NCBI RefSeq assembly: GCF_001514115.1 | Contig: NZ_KQ948452.1 | Location: forward strand, 412,460-476,459 | From: Streptomyces olivochromogenes | Lineage (GTDB): Bacteria > Actinomycetota > Actinomycetes > Streptomycetales > Streptomycetaceae | Length of the DNA: 64,000 nucleotides | Direction: 5' to 3' | Shown: one piece after another, positions 49,172 to 59,272 of the stretch | Numbering within the stretch: the first letter of the stretch is position 1 | Layout: every line of letters starts with the position of its first letter | Notes under the pieces: model-generated | What the model was told of the DNA's origin: nothing | Databases searched by the model: none | Seen by the model: the letters and a program-made list of their open reading frames with translations, nothing else | Position numbers and translations under genes: made by a program

Positions 49172-50284
49172 ATGGATATCGCCTACATTCCCAGCCCGTC
49201 GCACGGTGTGGTGCACCTCGGCCCCATCCCGCTGCGCGGCTACGCGTTCTGCATCATCATCGGCGTCTTCGTAGCCGTCTGGCTCGGCAACAAACGCTGG
49301 ATCGCCCGGGGTGGGCGGCCCGGCACGGTGGCCGACATCGCGGTGTGGGCCGTCCCGTTCGGCCTGGTCGGCGGCCGGCTCTACCACGTGATCACGGACT
49401 ACGAGCTGTACTTCAGCGACGGCCGTGACTGGGTGGACGCCTTCAAGGTGTGGCAGGGCGGCCTCGGCATCTGGGGCGCGATCGCGCTCGGTGCGGTGGG
49501 CGCGTGGATCGGCTGCCGCCGACGCGGCATCCCGCTCCCCGCCTGGGCCGACGCCCTCGCACCCGGCATCGTCTTCGCCCAGGCCATCGGGCGCTGGGGC
49601 AACTGGTTCAACCAGGAGCTGTACGGCAAGGCGACGGACGTGCCGTGGGCGCTGCACATCACGTCCTCCACGGACGGACGCGTGCCGGGGTACTACCACC
49701 CGACGTTCCTGTACGAGTCCCTGTGGTGCATCGGCGTCGGCTTCCTCGTCATCTGGGCGGACCGCCGCTTCACGCTGGGCCACGGGCGGGCGTTCGCGCT
49801 GTACGTCGCCGCGTACTGCGTCGGCCGCGGCTGGATCGAGTACATGCGCGTCGACGACGCCCACCACATCCTGGGCCTGCGTCTCAACGACTGGACCGCG
49901 ATGGTGGTCTTCCTCCTCGCGGTGACCTACATCGTGGTGTCGGCGCGGCTGCGGCCGGGACGCGAGGAGGTCGTCGAGCCGGACGGGGACACCCCCGACG
50001 GGGATGCCGTCGCCCTCGACAAGACGGCCGACAACAAGGCCGAGGACAAGGCCGACAGCAAGGCTGACGACGAGTCCGACGAGACGACCGACAAGAAGTC
50101 CGACGACAAGAAGTCCGACGACAAGAAGTCCGACGGCAAGAAGCTCGACGGCAAGAAGCCCGACGCGAAGACGGACACCGAGTCCGACGAACCCGCGCAG
50201 TCCAAGGAGCCCGCGGAATCCGAGGAGCCCGAGGAGTCCGTGGAGGCGGCGCGGGGCGAGGCCGAGTCGGCCAAGAAGGTCTGA
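49172..50284 (+). CDS. lgt: Prolipoprotein diacylglyceryl transferase
   Basis: A 370-aa membrane enzyme that transfers diacylglycerol from phosphatidylglycerol to the Cys of prolipoproteins, the step before LspA. Seven helices are expected. Conserved motifs are VPFGLVGGRLYHVITDYELY (catalytic His of the HGGL-like region), FAQAIGRWGNWFNQELYG (the Lgt signature with Arg and Asn) and YHPTFLYESLW. Residues 270-370 form an unusual tail of repeated DDKKSD/DGKK and acidic Glu/Ser/Pro segments, likely cytoplasmic and disordered. ATG 49172 begins the conserved MDIAYIPSP. The start lacks a Shine-Dalgarno. Confidence 0.95.
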   Translation: MDIAYIPSPSHGVVHLGPIPLRGYAFCIIIGVFVAVWLGNKRWIARGGRPGTVADIAVWAVPFGLVGGRLYHVITDYELYFSDGRDWVDAFKVWQGGLGIWGAIALGAVGAWIGCRRRGIPLPAWADALAPGIVFAQAIGRWGNWFNQELYGKATDVPWALHITSSTDGRVPGYYHPTFLYESLWCIGVGFLVIWADRRFTLGHGRAFALYVAAYCVGRGWIEYMRVDDAHHILGLRLNDWTAMVVFLLAVTYIVVSARLRPGREEVVEPDGDTPDGDAVALDKTADNKAEDKADSKADDESDETTDKKSDDKKSDDKKSDGKKLDGKKPDAKTDTESDEPAQSKEPAESEEPEESVEAARGEAESAKKV

Positions 50285-50342: not shown

Positions 50343-51179
50343 TCATTTCCGGCGGGAGAGCGCCAGCGTGCGGCGGGCGCCCGCCACGACCGCCGCGTCC
50401 ACGAAGCGGCCGTCGGGCAGGGCCTGGGCGCCCGGCTCGGTGGCGGCGGCTTTCACGATGAGCTCGGCGGTCTCGACCTCGGCCGGGGTCGGGAGATAGG
50501 CGTGTTCGATCACCGGGAGCTGGCGGGGGTGGATGGCCGCACGCCCGAGGAAGCCCAGGGTGCGCCCGTGGGCGCAGGAGGCGGCCAGGCCTTCCAGGTC
50601 CCGGATGTCCGGGTAGATCGACTGTGTGGGCGGCGCGAGGCCGGCGGCCCGGGCGGCGACCACGATCCGGGCGCGGGCCCAGTCCAGACCCGCGTCCTCC
50701 CGAACGCCCAGGTCGGCCCGTAGGTCCGCCTCCCCCAGCCCGATGCCGCGCACCGCCGGATGGGCCGCGGCGATGGTGAAGGCGTGTTCGACACCGAGGG
50801 CGGTTTCCAGGAGGGCGTACAGGGGGATCGCGCCTCCCTCGGAGGGGGCCGAGTGCTCCGCGACCCGGACGACATCGGCCGGGGAGGTCACCTTGGGCAG
50901 CCGGAGGCCGGAGAGGCCGGGGAGCGGGGCGAGCGTCCTCAGGTCGGCCTCGGCGAGGGGACCGCTCAGCGCGTTCACGCGGACGTGGACCGGGACCGGG
51001 GGAGGGTCCGAGAGCAACTCGGCGGTGGCGGCGCGGGCGTACTTCTTGCGGTGCGGGGCGACCGCGTCCTCCAGGTCGATCAGGACGACGTCCGCGCCGG
51101 AGACGAGGGCCTTGGCCACCACTTCCGGGTGGTCTCCGGGGGCGTAGAGCCAGGTGAGCGGGAGGGCCGGGATCCTCAT
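50343..51179 (-). CDS. HpcH/HpaI-type CoA ester lyase (CitE-like)
   Basis: A 278-aa TIM-barrel lyase of the CitE/L-malyl-CoA lyase superfamily, which splits or forms 3-hydroxyacyl-CoA esters with Mg2+. Features are LYAPGDHPEVVAKALVSGADVVLIDLEDAVAP (acidic residues of strand 2), HVRVNAL (substrate Arg), LRLPKVTSPADV, ALLETALGVEHAF (metal Glu) and GLGEADLRADLG (metal Asp). ATG 51179 overlaps the stop of the CaiB gene (ATGA). It is the last cistron of the seven-gene operon that begins at 58291. The CoA substrate is unknown. Confidence 0.88.
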   Translation of the reverse strand: MRIPALPLTWLYAPGDHPEVVAKALVSGADVVLIDLEDAVAPHRKKYARAATAELLSDPPPVPVHVRVNALSGPLAEADLRTLAPLPGLSGLRLPKVTSPADVVRVAEHSAPSEGGAIPLYALLETALGVEHAFTIAAAHPAVRGIGLGEADLRADLGVREDAGLDWARARIVVAARAAGLAPPTQSIYPDIRDLEGLAASCAHGRTLGFLGRAAIHPRQLPVIEHAYLPTPAEVETAELIVKAAATEPGAQALPDGRFVDAAVVAGARRTLALSRRK

Positions 51180-52396
51180 AGGGCGCCTTCCGATCTGAGG
51201 GTGGTGATCTCGTCCTCGGACAGGCCGAGTTCGGTGAGGACGGCGTCCGTGTCGGCGCCGTGGGGGCGGCCCGTCCAGCGGATCGCGCCTGGGGTGGTGG
51301 AGAGCCGGAAGAGCACGTTCTGCATGCGCAGGGGGCCGAGTTCGGGGTCGGTGACGGTGGTGATCGTGTCCAGGGCCGCGTACTGCGGGTCCTCCATCAC
51401 ATCCCGTACGTCCTGGACCGGGGCCACCGCCGCCTCCGCCTTCTCGAAGGCGTCCAGGACCTCGGCGCGGCGGTGGCGGGCGATCCAGGAGCCCACCGCC
51501 TCGTCCAGGACGTCCGCGTGGCGAGCCCGGTCGGCGCCCGTCGCGAACCACGGTTCCTCGATCAGCTCCGGGCGTCCGACCAGCCGCATCAGCCGCTCGG
51601 CGATCGACTGGGCGGAGGTCGAGACGGCGACCCAGGAGCCGTCCGCCGTGCGATAGGTGTTGCGGGGCGCGTTGTTCGCGGAGCGGTTGCCGGTGCGGGG
51701 CTGGACGTAACCCAACTGGTCGTACCAGACCGGCTGTGGGCCGAGCACGGTGAGGATCGGCTCGATGATCGCCATGTCGACCACCTGGCCGCGGTCCGAG
51801 GCGTCGCGGGCGCGGAGCGCGGCCATGACGGCGTACGCCGTCGCCAGGCCCGCGATCGAGTCGGCCAGGCCGAAGGGCGGGAGGGTCGGCGGGGAGTCCG
51901 GTTCGCCGGTGATCGCCGCGAAGCCGCTCATCGCCTCGGCGAGGGTGCCGAAGCCGGGGCGGTGCGCGTACGGGCCGAACTGGCCGAAGGCGGTCACGCG
52001 GGCGAGGACGAGGCGGGGGTTGGCGGCCGACAGCTCCGCCCAGCCCAGGTCCCACTTCTCCAGGGTGCCGGGCCGGAAGTTCTCGATGATCACGTCGGCG
52101 GTGGCGGCGAGGCGCAGGAGGGTGGCGCGGCCGCCGGGCCTGGACAGGTCGAGGGTGATGGTGCGTTTGTTGCGGCCGAGGAGTTTCCACCACAGGCCGA
52201 TGCCGTCCTTCGACGGGCCGTGGCCCCGGGACGGGTCGGGCTTGGCCGGGTGCTCGACCTTGACGACCTCCGCGCCGAAGTCGCCGAGCATGGTGGCGGC
52301 GAGCGGTCCGGCGAACAGGGTGGCGAGGTCGAGGACGCGCAGTCCGGTGAGCGGACCGCGACGCGTCCCCGCCTCCGAGTCCGTATGCCCGCTCAT
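51176..52396 (-). CDS. CaiB/BaiF family CoA-transferase
   Basis: A 406-aa class III CoA-transferase that moves CoA between carboxylic acids. The N-terminus has LTGLRVLDLATLFAGPLAATMLGDFGAEVVKVEHP, a family hallmark. KRTITLDLSRPGG and IIENFRPGTLEKWDLG follow, and the catalytic Asp is probably that in GQVVDMAIIEPI. ATG 52396 overlaps the ribokinase stop by four bases. With the CitE-like lyase next door it suggests activation and cleavage of a short organic acid. Longer readings are excluded because they run into ribokinase. Confidence 0.9.
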   Translation of the reverse strand: MSGHTDSEAGTRRGPLTGLRVLDLATLFAGPLAATMLGDFGAEVVKVEHPAKPDPSRGHGPSKDGIGLWWKLLGRNKRTITLDLSRPGGRATLLRLAATADVIIENFRPGTLEKWDLGWAELSAANPRLVLARVTAFGQFGPYAHRPGFGTLAEAMSGFAAITGEPDSPPTLPPFGLADSIAGLATAYAVMAALRARDASDRGQVVDMAIIEPILTVLGPQPVWYDQLGYVQPRTGNRSANNAPRNTYRTADGSWVAVSTSAQSIAERLMRLVGRPELIEEPWFATGADRARHADVLDEAVGSWIARHRRAEVLDAFEKAEAAVAPVQDVRDVMEDPQYAALDTITTVTDPELGPLRMQNVLFRLSTTPGAIRWTGRPHGADTDAVLTELGLSEDEITTLRSEGAL

Positions 52397-53304
52397 GAGG
52401 TGTGCCGGGTGTTCGAGGCGGCCTGGGCGTCGATCTCGGAGCGGTACGGCATCGAGGACGAGGCGCCGACGCGCTGCACCGACAGGGACGCGGCCGTCGA
52501 CGCCCATGCGAGGGCGGCGCGCATCGGCCGGCCCTCGGCGAGCGCGACCGCCAGGGTGCCGACGAAGGTGTCGCCCGCGCCGGTCGAGTCCACGGCGGTG
52601 ACCCGGGGCGCGGGCACGGTGAGGGGTTCGGCGCCACGGGCCGCGTACAGACTGCCCGCCGCGCCGAGGGTGACCACGACTTCCGGTACCTGGTCGAGCA
52701 GGGCGGTGGCCGCTTCGCGGGGGTCGGTGACTCCGGTCAGCGCGGCGGCCTCGTGTTCGTTGGGCACCAACAGGTCGATGGAGGCGAGGAGTTCGGGCGG
52801 CAGGGACTGTACGGGGGAGGGGGTCAGGATGGTCCGGACGCTGTGACGGCGCGCGGCCTCGGCGCCCGCGAGGACGGCGGCCAGCGGGATCTCCAGCTGG
52901 AGCAGCAGCGCGTCGGCGCCGGCGATGAGGACCTCGTCGCCCGGGGCGAGGTGGTCGACGGTGGCGTTGGCGCCGGGGACGACGACGATCGCGTTGCCGC
53001 CCTCGTCGTCCACGACGATGTGCGCGGTGCCGGACGGGCCCTCGGTGGTGCGCAGGTGGTCGGTGTCCACGCCCGAGTGCTCCAGGGTCGTACGGAGCTG
53101 GGAGCCGAAGGCGTCGGCGCCCACCGCGCCGATCATCGAGACGTCGGAGCCCGCGTGGGCGGCGGCCACCGCCTGGTTGGCGCCCTTGCCGCCGGGGATC
53201 GTGCGGAACTCCCGTCCCGTCACGGTCTCTCCGCGCTGCGGGGCCTTCGCGACGTAGGCGACGAGGTCCATGTTCGTGCTGCCGAGCACGGCGATATGGG
53301 TCAT
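52393..53304 (-). CDS. rbsK: Ribokinase (PfkB family sugar kinase)
   Basis: A 303-aa PfkB kinase, most like ribokinase. HIAVLGSTNMDLVAYV, IPGGKGANQAVAAAHAG (sugar-binding signature 1) and VDSTGAGDTFVGTLAVAL (signature 2, catalytic Asp and anion hole) are intact. It would phosphorylate D-ribose to ribose 5-phosphate with ATP. ATG 53304 overlaps the stop of the preceding ADP-ribosylglycohydrolase gene (ATGA), as do the other joints of this operon. Substrate assignment to ribose is by similarity; other pentoses or nucleosides are possible. Confidence 0.9.
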   Translation of the reverse strand: MTHIAVLGSTNMDLVAYVAKAPQRGETVTGREFRTIPGGKGANQAVAAAHAGSDVSMIGAVGADAFGSQLRTTLEHSGVDTDHLRTTEGPSGTAHIVVDDEGGNAIVVVPGANATVDHLAPGDEVLIAGADALLLQLEIPLAAVLAGAEAARRHSVRTILTPSPVQSLPPELLASIDLLVPNEHEAAALTGVTDPREAATALLDQVPEVVVTLGAAGSLYAARGAEPLTVPAPRVTAVDSTGAGDTFVGTLAVALAEGRPMRAALAWASTAASLSVQRVGASSSMPYRSEIDAQAASNTRHTS

Positions 53305-54677
53305 GGGTGACGGGTCTCCCGGTGCGTGAGCTGGTGGGTCAGCTGGGCGAGGGTGTCGAAGCCGATGCCGTCGAAGCCGGCGACGGAGGTGGCGAGGCGG
53401 TTCTTGAGAGGGGTGGTCCAGCGGTCGGGGAGGGCTGCGGGGGCGCCGGTGAGCAGGCCCGCGACGCTGCCCGCCGTGGCGCCGTTGGAGTCGGTGTCCC
53501 AGCCACCGGACACCGCGCGGCAGATGGAGCCGGAGAAGTCGCCGTCCGCGTGGGTGAGGGCGGCGGCGATCAGGGCGGTGTTGGGGAGGGCGTGGACCCA
53601 GTGGTAGGCGCGGTGGGTGGTGTGCAGTGCGTCGACGACCGTGTCGAAGTCCTCGGTGGTGCGGGCGAGGTGGACGGCGTGGCGGATCGCCTCGGCCAGC
53701 CGGGAGGCGGGGGGCACGACGGTGAGGCCGGTGCGCAGGCAGGCGTGGATGTCGCCGTGGCCGGTGGCCGCCTCGGCGATGGTGGCCGCCGTGAACATCG
53801 CGGCGTACACGCCGTTCGCGGTGTGGGTGAGGGTGGCGTCCCGGTGGGCCGCTTCCGCGGCGGCGGCCGGATCGCCCGGGTTGGTCCAGCCGTGGACGTC
53901 GGCGCGGATCAGGGCCCCGATCCATTCGCGGAAGGGGTTGCGGTGGTGGGCCGTGTGCGGGGGTTCGATGCCGGTGAGGAGGTTGCGGTAGGCGACGCGC
54001 TCGGCGGTGAACGTGCGGCCGGCGGGGAGTTCGTCCAGCCAGAGGCGGGCCACGTCGGCGGTCGTGAAGTCCCTGCCGTACCGCTGGAGCAACAGGAGGT
54101 TCAGGAGGGGGTAGTTGAGGTCGTCGTCCTCGGGCATGCCGTCGATGTTCTCGGCGAGGGAGGTGGCGGCGGAGCGTCTGTTCCAGGGGTGGGTCCGGAG
54201 GAGGTCGTCGGGTACGCCCCGGGCGGTGAACCAGGTGCGCAGGGGCCAGTTTCCGGCGGCCCGGGCCAGGTCGCGGATCCCTTCGAGGGGGAGCTTCTCC
54301 ACCGGTTTGCCGAGCAGGCAACCGGCCGCTCTGCCGAGCCAGGCGGCTTCCAGGTGGGCCTGGGTGGGGGCCGGCGCGGGCACGGGCCGGGCGGGCCAGT
54401 CCGGGCAGTGGGCCCTGATCTGCCCCAGGTCTGTCGGCTCTGTGTCCGCCAACCCGCTGGGCAGTTCCGCCAGTTCGTCCAGGAGGTCGCCCGCCAGTGC
54501 GCGCAGGTACCGTGAGGCCGGAGTCGGGGACGTGCCCGCGCGCGGTGGGGCCTTTAGGCCGCCCGCCGCGTGCCAGCGGGCGGCGATCGCCTCCGGTGCG
54601 CGGCCGTCCTGGTAGGCCTGGGTGAGTTCGTGGCCGAGAAGGTCCTCGGGTTGGACCCAGGTCAGTCGGAGCGTCAT
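53301..54677 (-). CDS. ADP-ribosylglycohydrolase family protein (first type)
   Basis: A 458-aa member of the ADP-ribosylglycohydrolase (DraG/ARH) fold. The first 105 residues are an extension (LTWVQPEDLLGHELTQAYQDG) found in one actinobacterial subgroup. The fold starts with LGRAAGCLLGKPVEK. The metal-binding sites are GMPEDDDLNYPL (EDDD at 183-186 in place of TDDT) and VSGGWDTDSNGATAGSVAGLL (GWDTDS). Thus both metal sites are present. ATG 54677 overlaps the preceding stop (ATGA). It probably hydrolyses an N-ribosyl bond; the substrate is unknown. Confidence 0.87.
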   Translation of the reverse strand: MTLRLTWVQPEDLLGHELTQAYQDGRAPEAIAARWHAAGGLKAPPRAGTSPTPASRYLRALAGDLLDELAELPSGLADTEPTDLGQIRAHCPDWPARPVPAPAPTQAHLEAAWLGRAAGCLLGKPVEKLPLEGIRDLARAAGNWPLRTWFTARGVPDDLLRTHPWNRRSAATSLAENIDGMPEDDDLNYPLLNLLLLQRYGRDFTTADVARLWLDELPAGRTFTAERVAYRNLLTGIEPPHTAHHRNPFREWIGALIRADVHGWTNPGDPAAAAEAAHRDATLTHTANGVYAAMFTAATIAEAATGHGDIHACLRTGLTVVPPASRLAEAIRHAVHLARTTEDFDTVVDALHTTHRAYHWVHALPNTALIAAALTHADGDFSGSICRAVSGGWDTDSNGATAGSVAGLLTGAPAALPDRWTTPLKNRLATSVAGFDGIGFDTLAQLTHQLTHRETRHP

Positions 54678-55834
54678 GGGGTCCCCGTCAGCTCGGCGTA
54701 CGCGGACTCGTGGGCGCGGCGACGGCCCACGTCACGGGCGAAGATCTCGCGGGTCACCCCGGTGAGGGTGGTCGCCGGGGCGTGCAGGTCCAGGCGGCTG
54801 GACTCGGCGACCGTCTTGGCCCAGTCGTGGGGGATCTCGGAGCCGAGGGCACCGGCGAGGGCGCCGGACATGGTGGCGATGGAGTCGCAGTCGCGGCCGT
54901 AGTTCACCGAGCCGAGGACCGCGTGCCGGTAGTCGCCCCCGGACACCACCAACATGCCCAGGGCGACGGGGAGTTCCTCGATCGTGTGGAGGCGGGAGGG
55001 GCGGCGGGCGGCGAGGGAGGGGGAGCGGTAGTCGGGGCCGACCGTGTCGTAGGGGGCCACCGCCTCGCGGAGCGGGATCAGCGCCGACTCGAAGTCCGTG
55101 TGGCGGGCGGCGACTTCGCAGACCGCCTCGATCGCCGACCGGGTGCCGTCCTTCGCCAGGGACAGGCAGGCCGCGACGACCGAGTCCGGGCGCGCCCCGG
55201 GCGCGCAGGCCGCCGCGACCCCCGCCGCGAAGACGGCCGCCGCCTCCCGCCCGTACGACGACTGGTGGGCGCCCGCGACGTCGAGCGCCTCGGCGTACGC
55301 GCCCGCCGGGTTGGCCGCGTTGACCAGGCCGACCGGCGCCATGTACATCGCGGCGCCGCAGTTGACGATGTTGCCGGTGCCGGCCTCCCGGGGGTCAGCG
55401 TGGCCGTAGTGGAGGCGGGCCACCAGCCACTTCTCCGCGAGGAAGATCCGCTGGAGGGGGATGGCCTCGGCCTCCAGTTCCGGGATCCAGCGCGGGCCCG
55501 TCATGAGGTCGGGGACCAGGTGCTCGGCGACGGCGTACGCGTCGAGGTGGTCGCGGACGGTGGCGTACACGCGTACCAGCGCGTGGGTCATCAGGGTGTC
55601 GTCGGTGACGTGTCCGTCGCCCTTGTGGTACGGGGCGATGGGGCGGGCGGTGCGCCAGGCGTCGCCGTTCCAGGGGCCGACGATGCCGTGGATCCGGCCG
55701 CCGTGCCGTTCGACGATCTGCTCGGGGGTGTAGCCCTCGACGGGGCCGCCGAGCGCGTCGCCGACGGCGGCTCCGACGAGGGCTCCGGTGATGCGTTCGT
55801 CGAGGGTTCCGGTTCCTTCTCCTTTGGGCGTCAT
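54674..55834 (-). CDS. ADP-ribosylglycohydrolase family protein (second)
   Basis: A 386-aa ARH/DraG-fold protein with complete metal-binding motifs: GAAVGDALGGPVEG near the start, HVTDDTLMTHALV (TDDT at 77-80), and VNYGRDCDSIATMSGALAGAL (GRDCDS, about 312-318). In studied members these residues hold two Mg ions that activate attack on the ribosyl C1. ATG 55834 is 8 nt after the stop of the upstream gene; GGAGAAGGA precedes it. It resembles the fourth copy (57188) in active-site layout more than the others. Confidence 0.88.
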   Translation of the reverse strand: MTPKGEGTGTLDERITGALVGAAVGDALGGPVEGYTPEQIVERHGGRIHGIVGPWNGDAWRTARPIAPYHKGDGHVTDDTLMTHALVRVYATVRDHLDAYAVAEHLVPDLMTGPRWIPELEAEAIPLQRIFLAEKWLVARLHYGHADPREAGTGNIVNCGAAMYMAPVGLVNAANPAGAYAEALDVAGAHQSSYGREAAAVFAAGVAAACAPGARPDSVVAACLSLAKDGTRSAIEAVCEVAARHTDFESALIPLREAVAPYDTVGPDYRSPSLAARRPSRLHTIEELPVALGMLVVSGGDYRHAVLGSVNYGRDCDSIATMSGALAGALGSEIPHDWAKTVAESSRLDLHAPATTLTGVTREIFARDVGRRRAHESAYAELTGTP

Positions 55835-55841
55835 GCCCGAA

Positions 55842-57191
55842 TCATCCCTCTGGGGTGGCCAGTTCCGTCGCTTCCAGGAGGTCGGCGAGTCCGATCAGGT
55901 CCGTGCCCGTGAGCCGGGGCAGCGCGCAGCCGGACAGGATGCGGCAGGCGTCGCGCCAGGAGGCCGGGATCGCGGCGCCGCCGCCCAGCGCGCCGGTGAG
56001 CGCGCCCGCGAGGGCCGGGGCCGAGTCCGCGACCCGGGACAGACAGGCGGCGGCGGGCACCGCCTCCGCGATCCGGCCGCGTGCGGCGGTGGCCAGGGCG
56101 AGGGCGACCGGCACGGTCTCCGCCGCCGCGATGCCGTAGCTGTAGACGTGGTCGACGATCTGGTGTTCCAGGAGGGGGACCAGGGCGAAGGTGTCCTCGC
56201 TGGCGCGGGCGAGCCGCAGTGCGTGCCGCGCGTTGCGGCCGATCTCCGTCGACTCGGGGAGCTCGGCGAGGGCGGCGTCCGCGCAGGCGTCGACGTCGGC
56301 CCCGGCGAGGGCGAGCGCGAGGGCCGCGGCCATCGCGCGGGCGCCGTGCACCCCGTCGCCGTCCTGGGTGTAGCGGGCGTCGAACTCGGCGAGTTCCGCG
56401 GCGAGTCGGGGGTCGCCCGGGTGCGCCACGGCGAGCACACAGGCCCGTACGCAGGCCGCGTCGTCGAAGTAGTGCGGGTTGTCGTGGCCGGTGGCGGGCG
56501 GGCGCAGCCCGGTGGCGAGGTTGCCGAGGCCCGCCCGTACGGAGATCCGGGCGCGGAGGGGGAGCAGCGCGGACTCGACCTCGGGGGCGCGCTCGGCGGC
56601 CGCGGCGACCTCGCTGGCGACGGCGTTCCAGGACAGGTCGATGGACGCCCGCATCCGGCGTTCCCGGCTCAGGTCGCCGAGCGCGCTGCGGTCTCCGGCG
56701 CGCAGCACGGCCTCCGCCGCGAACGCCGCCCATTCCGCGTCGTCCGACGGGCCGAGCCGCAGGGGTTCCGGCGGCTGGTTCAGCGCGATGGGCACGGGCA
56801 GAGTCGTCGTCGCGTTCTGTTCCGCGAAGGTGTCCAGCTCGCGGGTCAGCCGCCGGGTCCACTCGGGCATCCGGGCCGCGCGGTGCCGGCCGGCGGGCCA
56901 GCCGGCGGCGTCGCCCGCGGCCAGTCCGAGCAGGAGGCCCTCGATCCGGCGGGGGCGCGGGGCGGGTGCGGGGGCGGCGCCCGGCTCCGTACGAGGGGTC
57001 GCGCCCGACGCGGGGGAGTCCCCGGTGTCGGACGTCGAGGGTGAGTCCCCGGTGTCGGACGTCGAGGGTGAGTCCCCGGTGTCCGACGTCGAGGGTGAGT
57101 CCTCGATGTCGCAGATCGAGACCGATCCCCCGGCTTCCGGTGCCGAGACCGATCCGGTACCGGGTTCGTCGCCCACCAGGCCGGGTCTCAT
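55842..57191 (-). CDS. ADP-ribosylglycohydrolase-like protein with degenerate metal sites
   Basis: A 449-aa protein with the ARH fold (GLLLGLAAGDAAGWPAG, DGDGVHGARAMAAALALALAGADVDAC) but unusual active-site positions. The usual TDDT segment is replaced by DTFAEQNATTTLPV (about 120-132). The C-terminal GxDxDT is replaced by LSRVADSAPALAGALTGAL. Residues 31-58 are three copies of SPSTSDTGD, coded by a 27-bp tandem repeat, then a Pro/Ala-rich linker. It may be a noncatalytic partner of its three paralogues. ATG 57191 overlaps the preceding stop. Confidence 0.85.
   Translation of the reverse strand: MRPGLVGDEPGTGSVSAPEAGGSVSICDIEDSPSTSDTGDSPSTSDTGDSPSTSDTGDSPASGATPRTEPGAAPAPAPRPRRIEGLLLGLAAGDAAGWPAGRHRAARMPEWTRRLTRELDTFAEQNATTTLPVPIALNQPPEPLRLGPSDDAEWAAFAAEAVLRAGDRSALGDLSRERRMRASIDLSWNAVASEVAAAAERAPEVESALLPLRARISVRAGLGNLATGLRPPATGHDNPHYFDDAACVRACVLAVAHPGDPRLAAELAEFDARYTQDGDGVHGARAMAAALALALAGADVDACADAALAELPESTEIGRNARHALRLARASEDTFALVPLLEHQIVDHVYSYGIAAAETVPVALALATAARGRIAEAVPAAACLSRVADSAPALAGALTGALGGGAAIPASWRDACRILSGCALPRLTGTDLIGLADLLEATELATPEG
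57016..57123 (-). repeat. 27-bp tandem repeat inside the third ADP-ribosylglycohydrolase gene
   Basis: Units 57016-57042, 57043-57069 and 57070-57096 are nearly identical, and 57097-57123 is degenerate. Each encodes nine residues (SPSTSDTGD on the minus strand). Copy number can change without a frameshift. Confidence 0.85.
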
Positions 57192-58291
57192 GGCTGCACC
57201 TCGTCATCGTCGTCGGCAAGGATGTAATCGCTGGTGAGGGCGTACGGGTCGGGGGGTGGTGGAGGTGCCGTGCTCCCGGTTCCCCACTTCCCGTCGTCCC
57301 CCGGTGTGAGCAGTTCCGCCACGTCCAGTACGTGGTGGCCCGCCATGGAGGGCAGGCAGCTGCCGCGTGCCGGGCCGATGGCCGCCGCCCAGTCCGCCGG
57401 GATCGCGGCGGCGCCCCGGGTCGCCCCGGCCAGCGCACCCGCCACCGCGGCCGTGGTGTCGGCGTCGCGGCCCATGTTGACGGCGGTGAGGACGGACTCG
57501 GTGAAGTCGCCGTCGGCGGCGGCGTACGCGCCGAAGGCGAGGGCGACGGCCTCCGGGGCCAGGTCCGTCCAGGGGTAGCCGCCGATGACGACCGCCGAGC
57601 GGACCGCCCGTTCCCCGCGATGGGCGACGGCCACCGCCCGGCGCAGGGAGCGGGCCGTCCAGGAGTCGTCCGGGATCACGGCGAGCGCGGAGGCGACCAC
57701 CGCGATCGTGGCCGCGCCCGCCATCGCCGCCGCGACCCCCGCCGCGACCGCCTGGCCGCCGTAGATGCCCTCGCCTTCGTGGCTCACCGAGCCGTCGATC
57801 GCCACCAGCCGGGCCGCCTCCGCCGGGCGGCCCGCCGCGAAGACGCCGAAGGGGGCGGCGCGCATCGCCAGACCGTCGCTCCAGGCGTGCCGGTGCTGGG
57901 CGGAGATGGGGGCCGCGAGTCCCCGGCGCAGGTTCTCCAGGGTGCCGCGCTCGCTGAAGCCGGCGCCCCGGAACGGCCCCTCGTCGCGGTCGGCGATCCA
58001 CTGGTGCCAGGCCGCCTCGACATGCGTCACGGTGAGTGCCGAACCGTGCCGGGCCAGCAGCAGCCCCGAGAAGATCGCGTACTCCGTGTCGTCCGTCCCG
58101 GCCGGGTGCTCGGCGACGTACCCCGTGATCCGTCCCCACTTCGCGCGGATCTGCGACGGCCTCATGTTCTCGGCGGGCGCGCCCAGCGCGTCCCCGACGG
58201 CGAGGCCGAGCAGCGCGCCGCGGGCCCGCTCGCGCAGAGCGGCCGAGTCCCCGGATGCCGGGACGGAGGGAATGCAGGCGATGGAAGCCAT
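57188..58291 (-). CDS. ADP-ribosylglycohydrolase family protein (fourth; first gene of operon)
   Basis: A 367-aa ARH-fold protein with the most canonical motifs of the four: LLGLAVGDALGAPAE, AGTDDTEYAIFSG (TDDT at 66-69) and VNMGRDADTTAAVAGALAGATRG (GRDADT about 271-277). ATG 58291 follows a good GAGAGGAGAGG site, so it is the operon's first gene. The C-terminus is Pro/Asp-rich. Its stop overlaps the start of the degenerate copy at 57191. The 249-bp region 58292-58540 between it and the divergent transporter gene holds both promoters; I recognise no operator there. Confidence 0.9.
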   Translation of the reverse strand: MASIACIPSVPASGDSAALRERARGALLGLAVGDALGAPAENMRPSQIRAKWGRITGYVAEHPAGTDDTEYAIFSGLLLARHGSALTVTHVEAAWHQWIADRDEGPFRGAGFSERGTLENLRRGLAAPISAQHRHAWSDGLAMRAAPFGVFAAGRPAEAARLVAIDGSVSHEGEGIYGGQAVAAGVAAAMAGAATIAVVASALAVIPDDSWTARSLRRAVAVAHRGERAVRSAVVIGGYPWTDLAPEAVALAFGAYAAADGDFTESVLTAVNMGRDADTTAAVAGALAGATRGAAAIPADWAAAIGPARGSCLPSMAGHHVLDVAELLTPGDDGKWGTGSTAPPPPPDPYALTSDYILADDDDEVQP

Positions 58292-58540
58292 ACGGTGCCT
58301 CTCCTCTCAGGGCGCAGAGCCCTTTGGGGATGTGTCCCACGGGAGGGGGCGGGGAGAGCCGTCCGCGGCTCCTCATTCACCCGGTCGACATCTGTGCATG
58401 ATCCTTCACGGATGAGCACCCGAGGGTAAAACCGCAGGTTAGCCCAGCCTTTCCTTGCTGGCGGAGAAGAAATTCCAGGCGTACTTTCGTGGTTGTCGAA
58501 AAGTAGAAACAGTCCAATCGACGGATCCTGGGGGACCGGT

Positions 58541-59272
58541 ATGTCCATCATCGAGACCGAAGCGGCACTGCACGTGGCGCACCGCGACAACCACACCCAC
58601 CGGGACGTGAACGGCGGATGGCTGCGCCCGGCCGTGTTCGGCGCGATGGACGGGCTCGTGTCCAACCTCGCCCTGATGACCGGCGTCGCCGGCGGGTCCG
58701 TCTCCCATCAGACGATCGTCATCACCGGGCTCGCGGGCCTGGCCGCCGGCGCCTTCTCCATGGCCGCGGGCGAGTACACCTCCGTCGCCTCGCAGCGCGA
58801 ACTCGTCCAGGCCGAACTCGACGTCGAGCGCCGTGAGTTGAGAAAGCATCCGCAGGACGAGGAGCGCGAGCTCGCCGCGCTGTACGAGTCGCGCGGCGTC
58901 GATTCCGCGCTCGCCCGCGAAGTGGCCAAGCAGCTCTCGCGTGACCCCGAACAGGCCCTGGAGATACACGCCCGCGAAGAGCTCGGCATCGACCCCGGCG
59001 ACCTGCCCTCCCCGGCCGTCGCCGCCGTGTCGAGCTTCGGCTCCTTCGCCCTGGGCGCCCTGCTCCCCGTACTGCCGTATCTGCTCGGCGCGACCGTCCT
59101 GTGGCCCGCGCTGCTGCTCGCGCTGATCGGGCTCTTCGCGTGCGGCGCGATCGTGGCCCGGGTGACGGCTCGAACCTGGTGGTACAGCGGAATCCGGCAG
59201 CTCGCGCTCGGGGGTGCCGCGGCGGGTGTGACATACGTCCTGGGCAGCCTGTTCGGTACCGCCGTAGGATGA
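58541..59272 (+). CDS. VIT1/CCC1-family transporter
   Basis: A 243-aa membrane protein of the vacuolar iron/manganese transporter family (CCC1/Nodulin-21). Features are GWLRPAVFGAMDGLVSNLALMTGVAGG (helix 1 with the conserved Asp), GLAAGAFSMAAGEYTSVASQRE (helix 2 with the Met/Glu metal site), a Glu-rich cytoplasmic metal-binding helix (QAELDVERRELRKHPQDEERELAALYESRG) and three more helices. It would move Fe2+ or Mn2+ across the membrane. ATG 58541 has CTGGGGGACC upstream. It is divergent from the ADP-ribosylglycohydrolase operon; no Fur/DmdR box recognised. Confidence 0.88.
   Translation: MSIIETEAALHVAHRDNHTHRDVNGGWLRPAVFGAMDGLVSNLALMTGVAGGSVSHQTIVITGLAGLAAGAFSMAAGEYTSVASQRELVQAELDVERRELRKHPQDEERELAALYESRGVDSALAREVAKQLSRDPEQALEIHAREELGIDPGDLPSPAVAAVSSFGSFALGALLPVLPYLLGATVLWPALLLALIGLFACGAIVARVTARTWWYSGIRQLALGGAAAGVTYVLGSLFGTAVG

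Follow-up and report, generated by a model that had tools for sequence, protein, structure and literature searches.

The window analysed here is a 64,000-nucleotide stretch of Streptomyces olivochromogenes (assembly GCF_001514115.1, contig NZ_KQ948452.1, positions 412,460 to 476,459 of the forward strand). Its minus strand carries, in one tightly coupled run at 50343-58291, seven genes for four proteins of the ADP-ribosylglycohydrolase (ARH)/DraG fold, a ribokinase, a class III coenzyme A (CoA) transferase and an acyl-CoA lyase. We lean, by a modest degree, towards reading this operon as a Streptomyces version, without importer, of a conserved actinobacterial operon predicted to degrade an imported sugar/hydroxy-acid glycoside, probably an alpha-riboside. 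The enzyme genes of relatives directly follow those for a LacI repressor, two permeases and a solute-binding protein, and since importer and repressor head the operon there, the substrate is likely to be imported. The features concerned are as follows.

57188-58291, minus strand: ARH1, ARH/DraG-fold protein of 367 aa (PF03747, 195 bits)
55842-57191, minus strand: ARH2, ARH-fold protein of 449 aa (PF03747, 121 bits)
54674-55834, minus strand: ARH3, ARH-fold protein of 386 aa (PF03747, 158 bits)
53301-54677, minus strand: ARH4, 458 aa, N-terminal extension of about 100 residues plus ARH domain (PF03747, 170 bits)
52393-53304, minus strand: ribokinase (RbsK), 303 aa (TIGR02152, 310.1 bits)
51176-52396, minus strand: CaiB/BaiF class III CoA-transferase, 406 aa (PF02515, 411.6 bits)
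50343-51179, minus strand: CitE/HpcH-type acyl-CoA lyase, 278 aa (PF03328, 128.1 bits)
58292-58492, no strand: divergent intergenic region between ARH1 and a VIT-family gene, where the Streptomyces locus L202 carries LacI and an ATP-binding cassette (ABC) importer

The coordinates and the Pfam and NCBIfam matches bear out the first-pass annotation, which had proposed seven minus-strand genes of these families. It had also described overlaps at all junctions but one, which holds (4 nt at five of the six), while the remaining gap, between ARH2 and ARH3, measures 7 nt and not the 8 nt given. All four ARH proteins exceed the curated PF03747 cut-off of 26.2 bits, and the genome contains 12 matches to this family, four of them in this operon. 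The kinase lies above the cut-off of the curated ribokinase equivalog model TIGR02152 (299.65 bits), in agreement with the earlier assignment, but below that of a second ribokinase model, NF008353 (262.7 against 341).

A scan of named genomes with an ARH3 alignment yielded 80 loci, the best 80 of at least 553 relatives (at least 592 stretches) ranked by closeness to a sequence from a metagenome-assembled genome (MAG), and thus an uneven sample. They come from Streptomyces, Nonomuraea, Microbispora, Kribbella, Jiangellaceae, Microbacteriaceae and Cellulosimicrobium, and extend to Nanopelagicaceae-type MAGs and to Trueperaceae (Deinococcota); one small-genome actinobacterial MAG with the cluster is labelled as from Lake Pavin. 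Three pairs of loci (L097/L176, L102/L159 and L089/L227) are each probably one contig, and other species may be represented both among the 80 loci and among the separately fetched regions. Two labels look doubtful: the 'Bifidobacterium breve' MAG L160 has an ARH3 that is 88% Nanopelagicaceae-like, and the locus of 'Sphaerisporangium cinnabarinum' L219 is Cellulosimicrobium-like. ARH3 is the most constant ARH member (80 of the 80 loci), with ARH4 in 77, ARH2 in 59 and ARH1 in 57; CaiB and CitE were each found in 58, the binding protein and LacI in 53 each, RbsK in 48 and GHX, an alternative enzyme described below, in 21.

The window's operon is followed by lgt (stop at 50284) and then trp genes, and the VIT-family gene (58493-59272) diverges from it. 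Outside this trp-lgt/VIT site, a sugar-type ABC importer, recognised by its binding protein, is present in 52 of 55 loci, nearly all with LacI; the three exceptions are L183, near its contig start, L194, a contig of 3.3 kb, and L173, in which ARH1 is immediately preceded by LacI. Of the 25 loci at the VIT/lgt site, L202 has the importer and L215 has LacI alone; none of 18 further Streptomyces regions at this site has the importer, which makes 1 of 43. Importer and LacI together adjoin the enzymes in 51 of the 80 relatives, L202 from Streptomyces sp. HNM0575 among them, and do not do so in the window; a further full operon is that of L176 from Haloactinopolyspora alba. Because L202 and L215 look like intermediates, we infer that the importer was lost at the VIT/lgt site and that the window's form is probably a derived one. 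In five other Streptomyces genomes (G014, G037, G047, G059 and G073) a binding-protein gene closely precedes ARH1, judged from positions and, for G047, from the mapped locus. The first-pass remark that the operon holds no transporter is thus correct for the genes of the window's operon, but not for its relatives.

In 45 of 49 loci the 330 bases that precede the LacI match contain a palindrome, G(T/G)AAACG(A/T)TT(A/C)C, which has 71 sites in the 975 kb of those loci; 200 mononucleotide shuffles of the same upstream regions gave none. The whole genome of the window's strain has a single site with one mismatch to this operator, on contig 10. The closest solved structures to the importer's binding protein are oligosaccharide-binding proteins, with weak scores; assignment of a ligand from them was dropped, the best match reaching only 75 bits. 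The arrangement in relatives recalls LacI-regulated CUT1-type sugar operons, with their LacI, two permeases, solute-binding protein, intracellular glycosidase and kinase. It differs from them in that the glycosidase slots are mainly filled by ARH-fold proteins and that a CoA-transferase and an acyl-CoA lyase are added, and the window's form lacks importer and repressor.

A related importer is encoded elsewhere in the window's genome. On contig 13, at about 224716-227845 (L147:8717-11846), lie a binding protein and two permeases related to the importer of the relatives' operon; this binding protein is 47% identical to that of L093 and scores 392 bits, the runner-up reaching 73. It adjoins a glycosyltransferase-like gene, and no LacI was seen nearby among the open frames listed. 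Importers of this type occur in 67 of 101 Streptomyces genomes, and we regard the contig-13 importer as a candidate only.

The seven proteins, mapped onto 40 regions, show the order ARH1-ARH2-ARH3-ARH4-RbsK-CaiB-CitE in most Streptomyces, and the order is kept in several other actinobacterial families at 45-75% identity, against about 70-97% for most operon genes among Streptomyces. Since the gene order recurs across families, the co-occurrence is more than chance. It extends far beyond this strain, within Streptomyces and outside it, and is the opposite of the outcome that the first-pass annotation had named as refuting its reading. ARH2 was matched strongly in 73 of the 101 Streptomyces genomes, weakly only in 13 and not at all in 15; among 296 genomes of the class, 56 gave a match to ARH4, and ARH3 was matched in 68 of 396 genomes of the phylum, strongly only in the 10 Streptomyces of that draw. 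Four Streptomyces loci (L042, L051, L057 and L058) lack the ribokinase alone. L045 (G012:C1:8835000-8853000), near a chromosome end, carries only ARH2 and ARH3. In L098 (11714-12435) two small minus-strand frames, PIN-type toxin/antitoxin-like by eye, stand between CaiB and CitE.

ARH1, ARH3, ARH4, CaiB and CitE were compared in alignments with script-set starts, from which L103-L108 were left out together with orthologues of unusual length or interrupted by stop codons. In ARH1 the metal motifs GTDDTEY and GRDADT are intact, the metal motif and a WSDG motif being invariant in 31 of 31 rows; ARH3 keeps TDDT and YGRDxDS in 33 of 33 rows, and ARH4, which folds as an ARH domain behind its N-terminal extension, keeps DDD and GxDTDS in 31 of 31. 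In ARH2, by contrast with these, all 7 rows aligned have V, L, N or Q in place of the first Asp of GRDADT. ARH2 accompanies ARH1 in 57 of 57 loci and, as its metal ligand is lost, is predicted to be a non-catalytic partner of ARH1. The earlier description of four ARH-fold proteins therefore stands for the fold, assigned by sequence to all four, but they are not equivalent hydrolases. The N-terminus of ARH2 (window about 57000-57130) carries, by eye, several imperfect TSDTGDSPS repeats in a low-complexity extension.

Where two characterised DraG proteins have GNGAAMR, a loop that we take to contact the ADP part, ARH1 has WSDG(L/A)AMR, and the equivalent loop also differs in ARH3 and ARH4; the uncharacterised MJ1187 is likewise without GNG. 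Curated function models were far from reached (DraG, best 76.5 against 337.05 bits; Tri1, best 44.9 against 490). The idea that other ARH genes of the genome form parts of similar operons was rejected after eight 16-kb regions around them had been searched: these held no relative of the importer, LacI, ribokinase or CaiB, and the one weak match to CitE (29%) is some 5 kb away from the ARH4 paralogue. The paralogue of ARH4 at L247:7753-8772 (G000 contig 1), 42-45% identical, stands outside any importer operon.

In relatives, ARH1-ARH2 largely alternates with another enzyme, GHX. A locus was called complete when it had ARH3 and CaiB plus binding protein, VIT or ARH1, as did 87 of 114 (the ARH1 of L101 dropped out of this map through the overlap filter), and none of the 87 lacks both. 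The predicted N-terminal domain of GHX shows some resemblance to GH129/GH13 alpha-glycosidases, at 12% identity in a predicted model, and GHX differs from them by an added C-terminal FGE-like domain (PF03781); the cysteine that we assume to be catalytic in FGE seems absent from it, and we doubt that it has FGE activity. GHX in the window's genome amounts to a match of 46 residues at 24.8 bits. A protein of 1067 residues, P0170, fuses an ARH domain to GHX, which supports a shared pathway. Given that ARH1-ARH2 alternates with a glycosidase-like enzyme, the ARH proteins are likely to be catabolic glycosidases.

CaiB and CitE have the hallmarks of their families. CaiB matches PF02515 and has a conserved Asp, D179, presumably catalytic, that is invariant in 32 of 32 rows; CitE keeps D35, E37, D38, R67, E125 and D152, which we take to be its active site, in 33 of 33. 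Both are below the cut-off of every curated functional model: the best for CaiB is succinate-glutarate CoA-transferase (234.6 bits against 750), and that for CitE is RipC/Ccl (153.5 against 375, so that the citramalyl-CoA lyase model is not reached), its nearest solved structures by sequence being the acyl-CoA lyases 8khl and 9nzb. A CoA-transferase beside a CitE-type lyase, with RipC/Ccl as best model, is what itaconate/citramalate degradation also has; unlike there, the transferase here is of class III, no hydratase was seen in the operon and the two proteins stay under the curated cut-offs. In Okibacterium (L169:17994-20513) and Cellulosimicrobium (L235:18090-20639) the gene immediately after CitE encodes a putative esterase (PF00756) that contains a beta-propeller repeat, and a cluster of open frames at this position recurs in 11 loci. 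The esterase is possibly secreted, to judge by eye from its signal sequence, and suggests that the natural substrate may contain an ester. In L093 (2608-3954) an FGGY-family carbohydrate kinase adjoins CitE; no such kinase was found beside CitE in the 80 loci.

In the pathway that we propose, a glycoside would be taken up by the LacI-controlled sugar-type importer, as the gene order of relatives suggests. ARH1, with ARH2 as non-catalytic partner, or the GH129/GH13-like hydrolase in other lineages, would cleave the first glycosidic bond, and ARH3 and ARH4 may cleave further N- or O-ribosyl bonds. The freed ribose would be converted to ribose 5-phosphate by the ribokinase or by a kinase encoded elsewhere, and the freed acid activated by CaiB; the CitE-type lyase could then release acetyl-CoA from the CoA-acid and leave an oxo or aldehyde acid, as happens in citramalate/malate breakdown. 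In the window's strain the importer has gone from the operon, and a related candidate importer is encoded elsewhere in the genome. A catabolic role fits better than a regulatory one, as the salvage or removal suggested by the first-pass annotation would have it; among the substrates it listed, ADP-ribosylated molecules are now the least supported, while modified nucleosides and other ribosides stay in contention. No described pathway of this gene composition was found in the literature searched. More tentatively, and with somewhat more doubt than trust, we extend the proposal to these ARH-fold proteins as a class of true catabolic glycosidases, in which active ARH1 plus inactive ARH2 would equal a GH129/GH13-like hydrolase in a LacI-controlled alpha-riboside pathway of Actinomycetota and Deinococcota that yields ribose 5-phosphate, acetyl-CoA and an oxo acid.

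Several observations weigh against the degradation of an imported riboside. The operator was found neither in the window, the region 58292-58492 included, nor at the contig-13 importer region. Importers of the contig-13 type go together with the operon only weakly, being present in 53 of 73 genomes that have it and in 14 of 28 that do not (p = 0.037, with no correction for shared descent), and the tree places them at no settled point among the operon importers, for which reason the idea of a relocated importer is not carried. Eight complete loci hold both GHX and ARH1-ARH2, so exclusion is incomplete, and the GH129 likeness of the GHX model comes with low Foldseek TM-scores (0.34-0.37). Of the 80 loci, 32 are without the ribokinase; 14 of these belong to the 25 at the VIT/lgt site, and some are truncated by the end of a contig. 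The kinase is an optional and not an essential member of the cluster, which qualifies the ribose recycling that the first-pass annotation had ascribed to it. CaiB and CitE are missing in 22 of the 80, some at contig ends, and unrelated genes follow the cluster in their place in L161, L184, L200, L216, L217 and L233, so that this acid arm is usual and not obligatory.

Among other explanations, salvage of modified nucleosides or other N-ribosides, in which ribose would be recycled and the base or side chain would remain, fares best, and we hold it to be unlikely. Its model is E. coli yegTUV (repressor YegW/GgaR), where, according to excerpts of PMC10819704, a putative nucleoside symporter, an ARH-family protein and a PfkB-type sugar kinase share one regulated transcript, the functions of the three proteins being given there as unknown; the identification of our kinase as a ribokinase also speaks for it. 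In contrast, yegTUV has one ARH protein, a major facilitator superfamily nucleoside-type symporter and a GntR repressor, and no ABC importer, LacI, CoA-transferase or lyase. Moreover, the relatives' importer is of sugar type with oligosaccharide-binding proteins as closest, if weak, solved relatives, bases need no CoA-transferase or lyase, and ARH1-ARH2 alternates with a GH129/GH13-like enzyme.

That the Streptomyces operon, having lost importer and repressor, now serves an internal conjugate such as a damaged or stored metabolite, unlike its relatives, strikes us as quite improbable. Retention of the importer in only 1 of 43 VIT/lgt relatives would agree with it, as would the persistence of the operon in 73 of 101 Streptomyces genomes at high identity, but a related importer is found elsewhere in 67 of the 101 and the enzyme set is the same as in the full operons.

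The preferred reading, degradation of an imported glycoside, also bears on S. coelicolor. From the order VIT-ARH1-4-CaiB-CitE-lgt-trp, with lgt taken to be SCO2034, SCO2028-2031 appear to be ARH1-ARH4 and the ribokinase appears to be missing at this place, an assignment by position. In the passages concerned, trpX is SCO2038 (PMC5036795), SCO2028-SCO2031 are among eight uncharacterised DraG/ARH homologues (PMC9411070), and seven such homologues are listed with SCO2031 left out (PMC5087735). These listings correspond to the view that the four proteins are true ADP-ribosylhydrolases reversing protein or nucleic-acid ADP-ribosylation, which we consider very doubtful: they share with DraG/ARH enzymes the fold and, in ARH1, ARH3 and ARH4, the metal motifs, but differ in the altered loop, the scores far under the DraG and Tri1 cut-offs, the LacI and sugar importer in relatives and the broken metal site of ARH2; no ADP-ribosyltransferase was reported in the operon by the first-pass annotation or seen in the gene-order maps; and SCO2028 and SCO2030 had no activity on U-alpha-ADPr, the ADP-ribose substrate reported in the available part of PMC13036486. 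Some ARH proteins of Streptomyces do have a role with ADP-ribose: SCO5809, another ARH-like protein, acts on ADP-ribose at RNA phosphate ends and is inactive on guanosine-linked ADP-ribose, according to a partial text of PMC11833690.

If the preferred reading is true, four of the eight ARH proteins listed in the excerpt of PMC9411070 would belong to an imported-glycoside pathway and the count would shrink, which concerns the 'lively ADP-ribosylation metabolism' of Streptomyces that is partly argued, in the section of PMC5087735 available, from the many ARH homologues. The ARH fold would then gain a catabolic branch, and, on the more tentative reading of a class of catabolic glycosidases, half of S. 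coelicolor's listed ADP-ribosylhydrolases would be unrelated to ADP-ribosylation. The importer, the operator and the alternative hydrolase would offer direct handles on the natural substrate in soil actinobacteria, in small-genome actinobacterial MAGs and in Trueperaceae.

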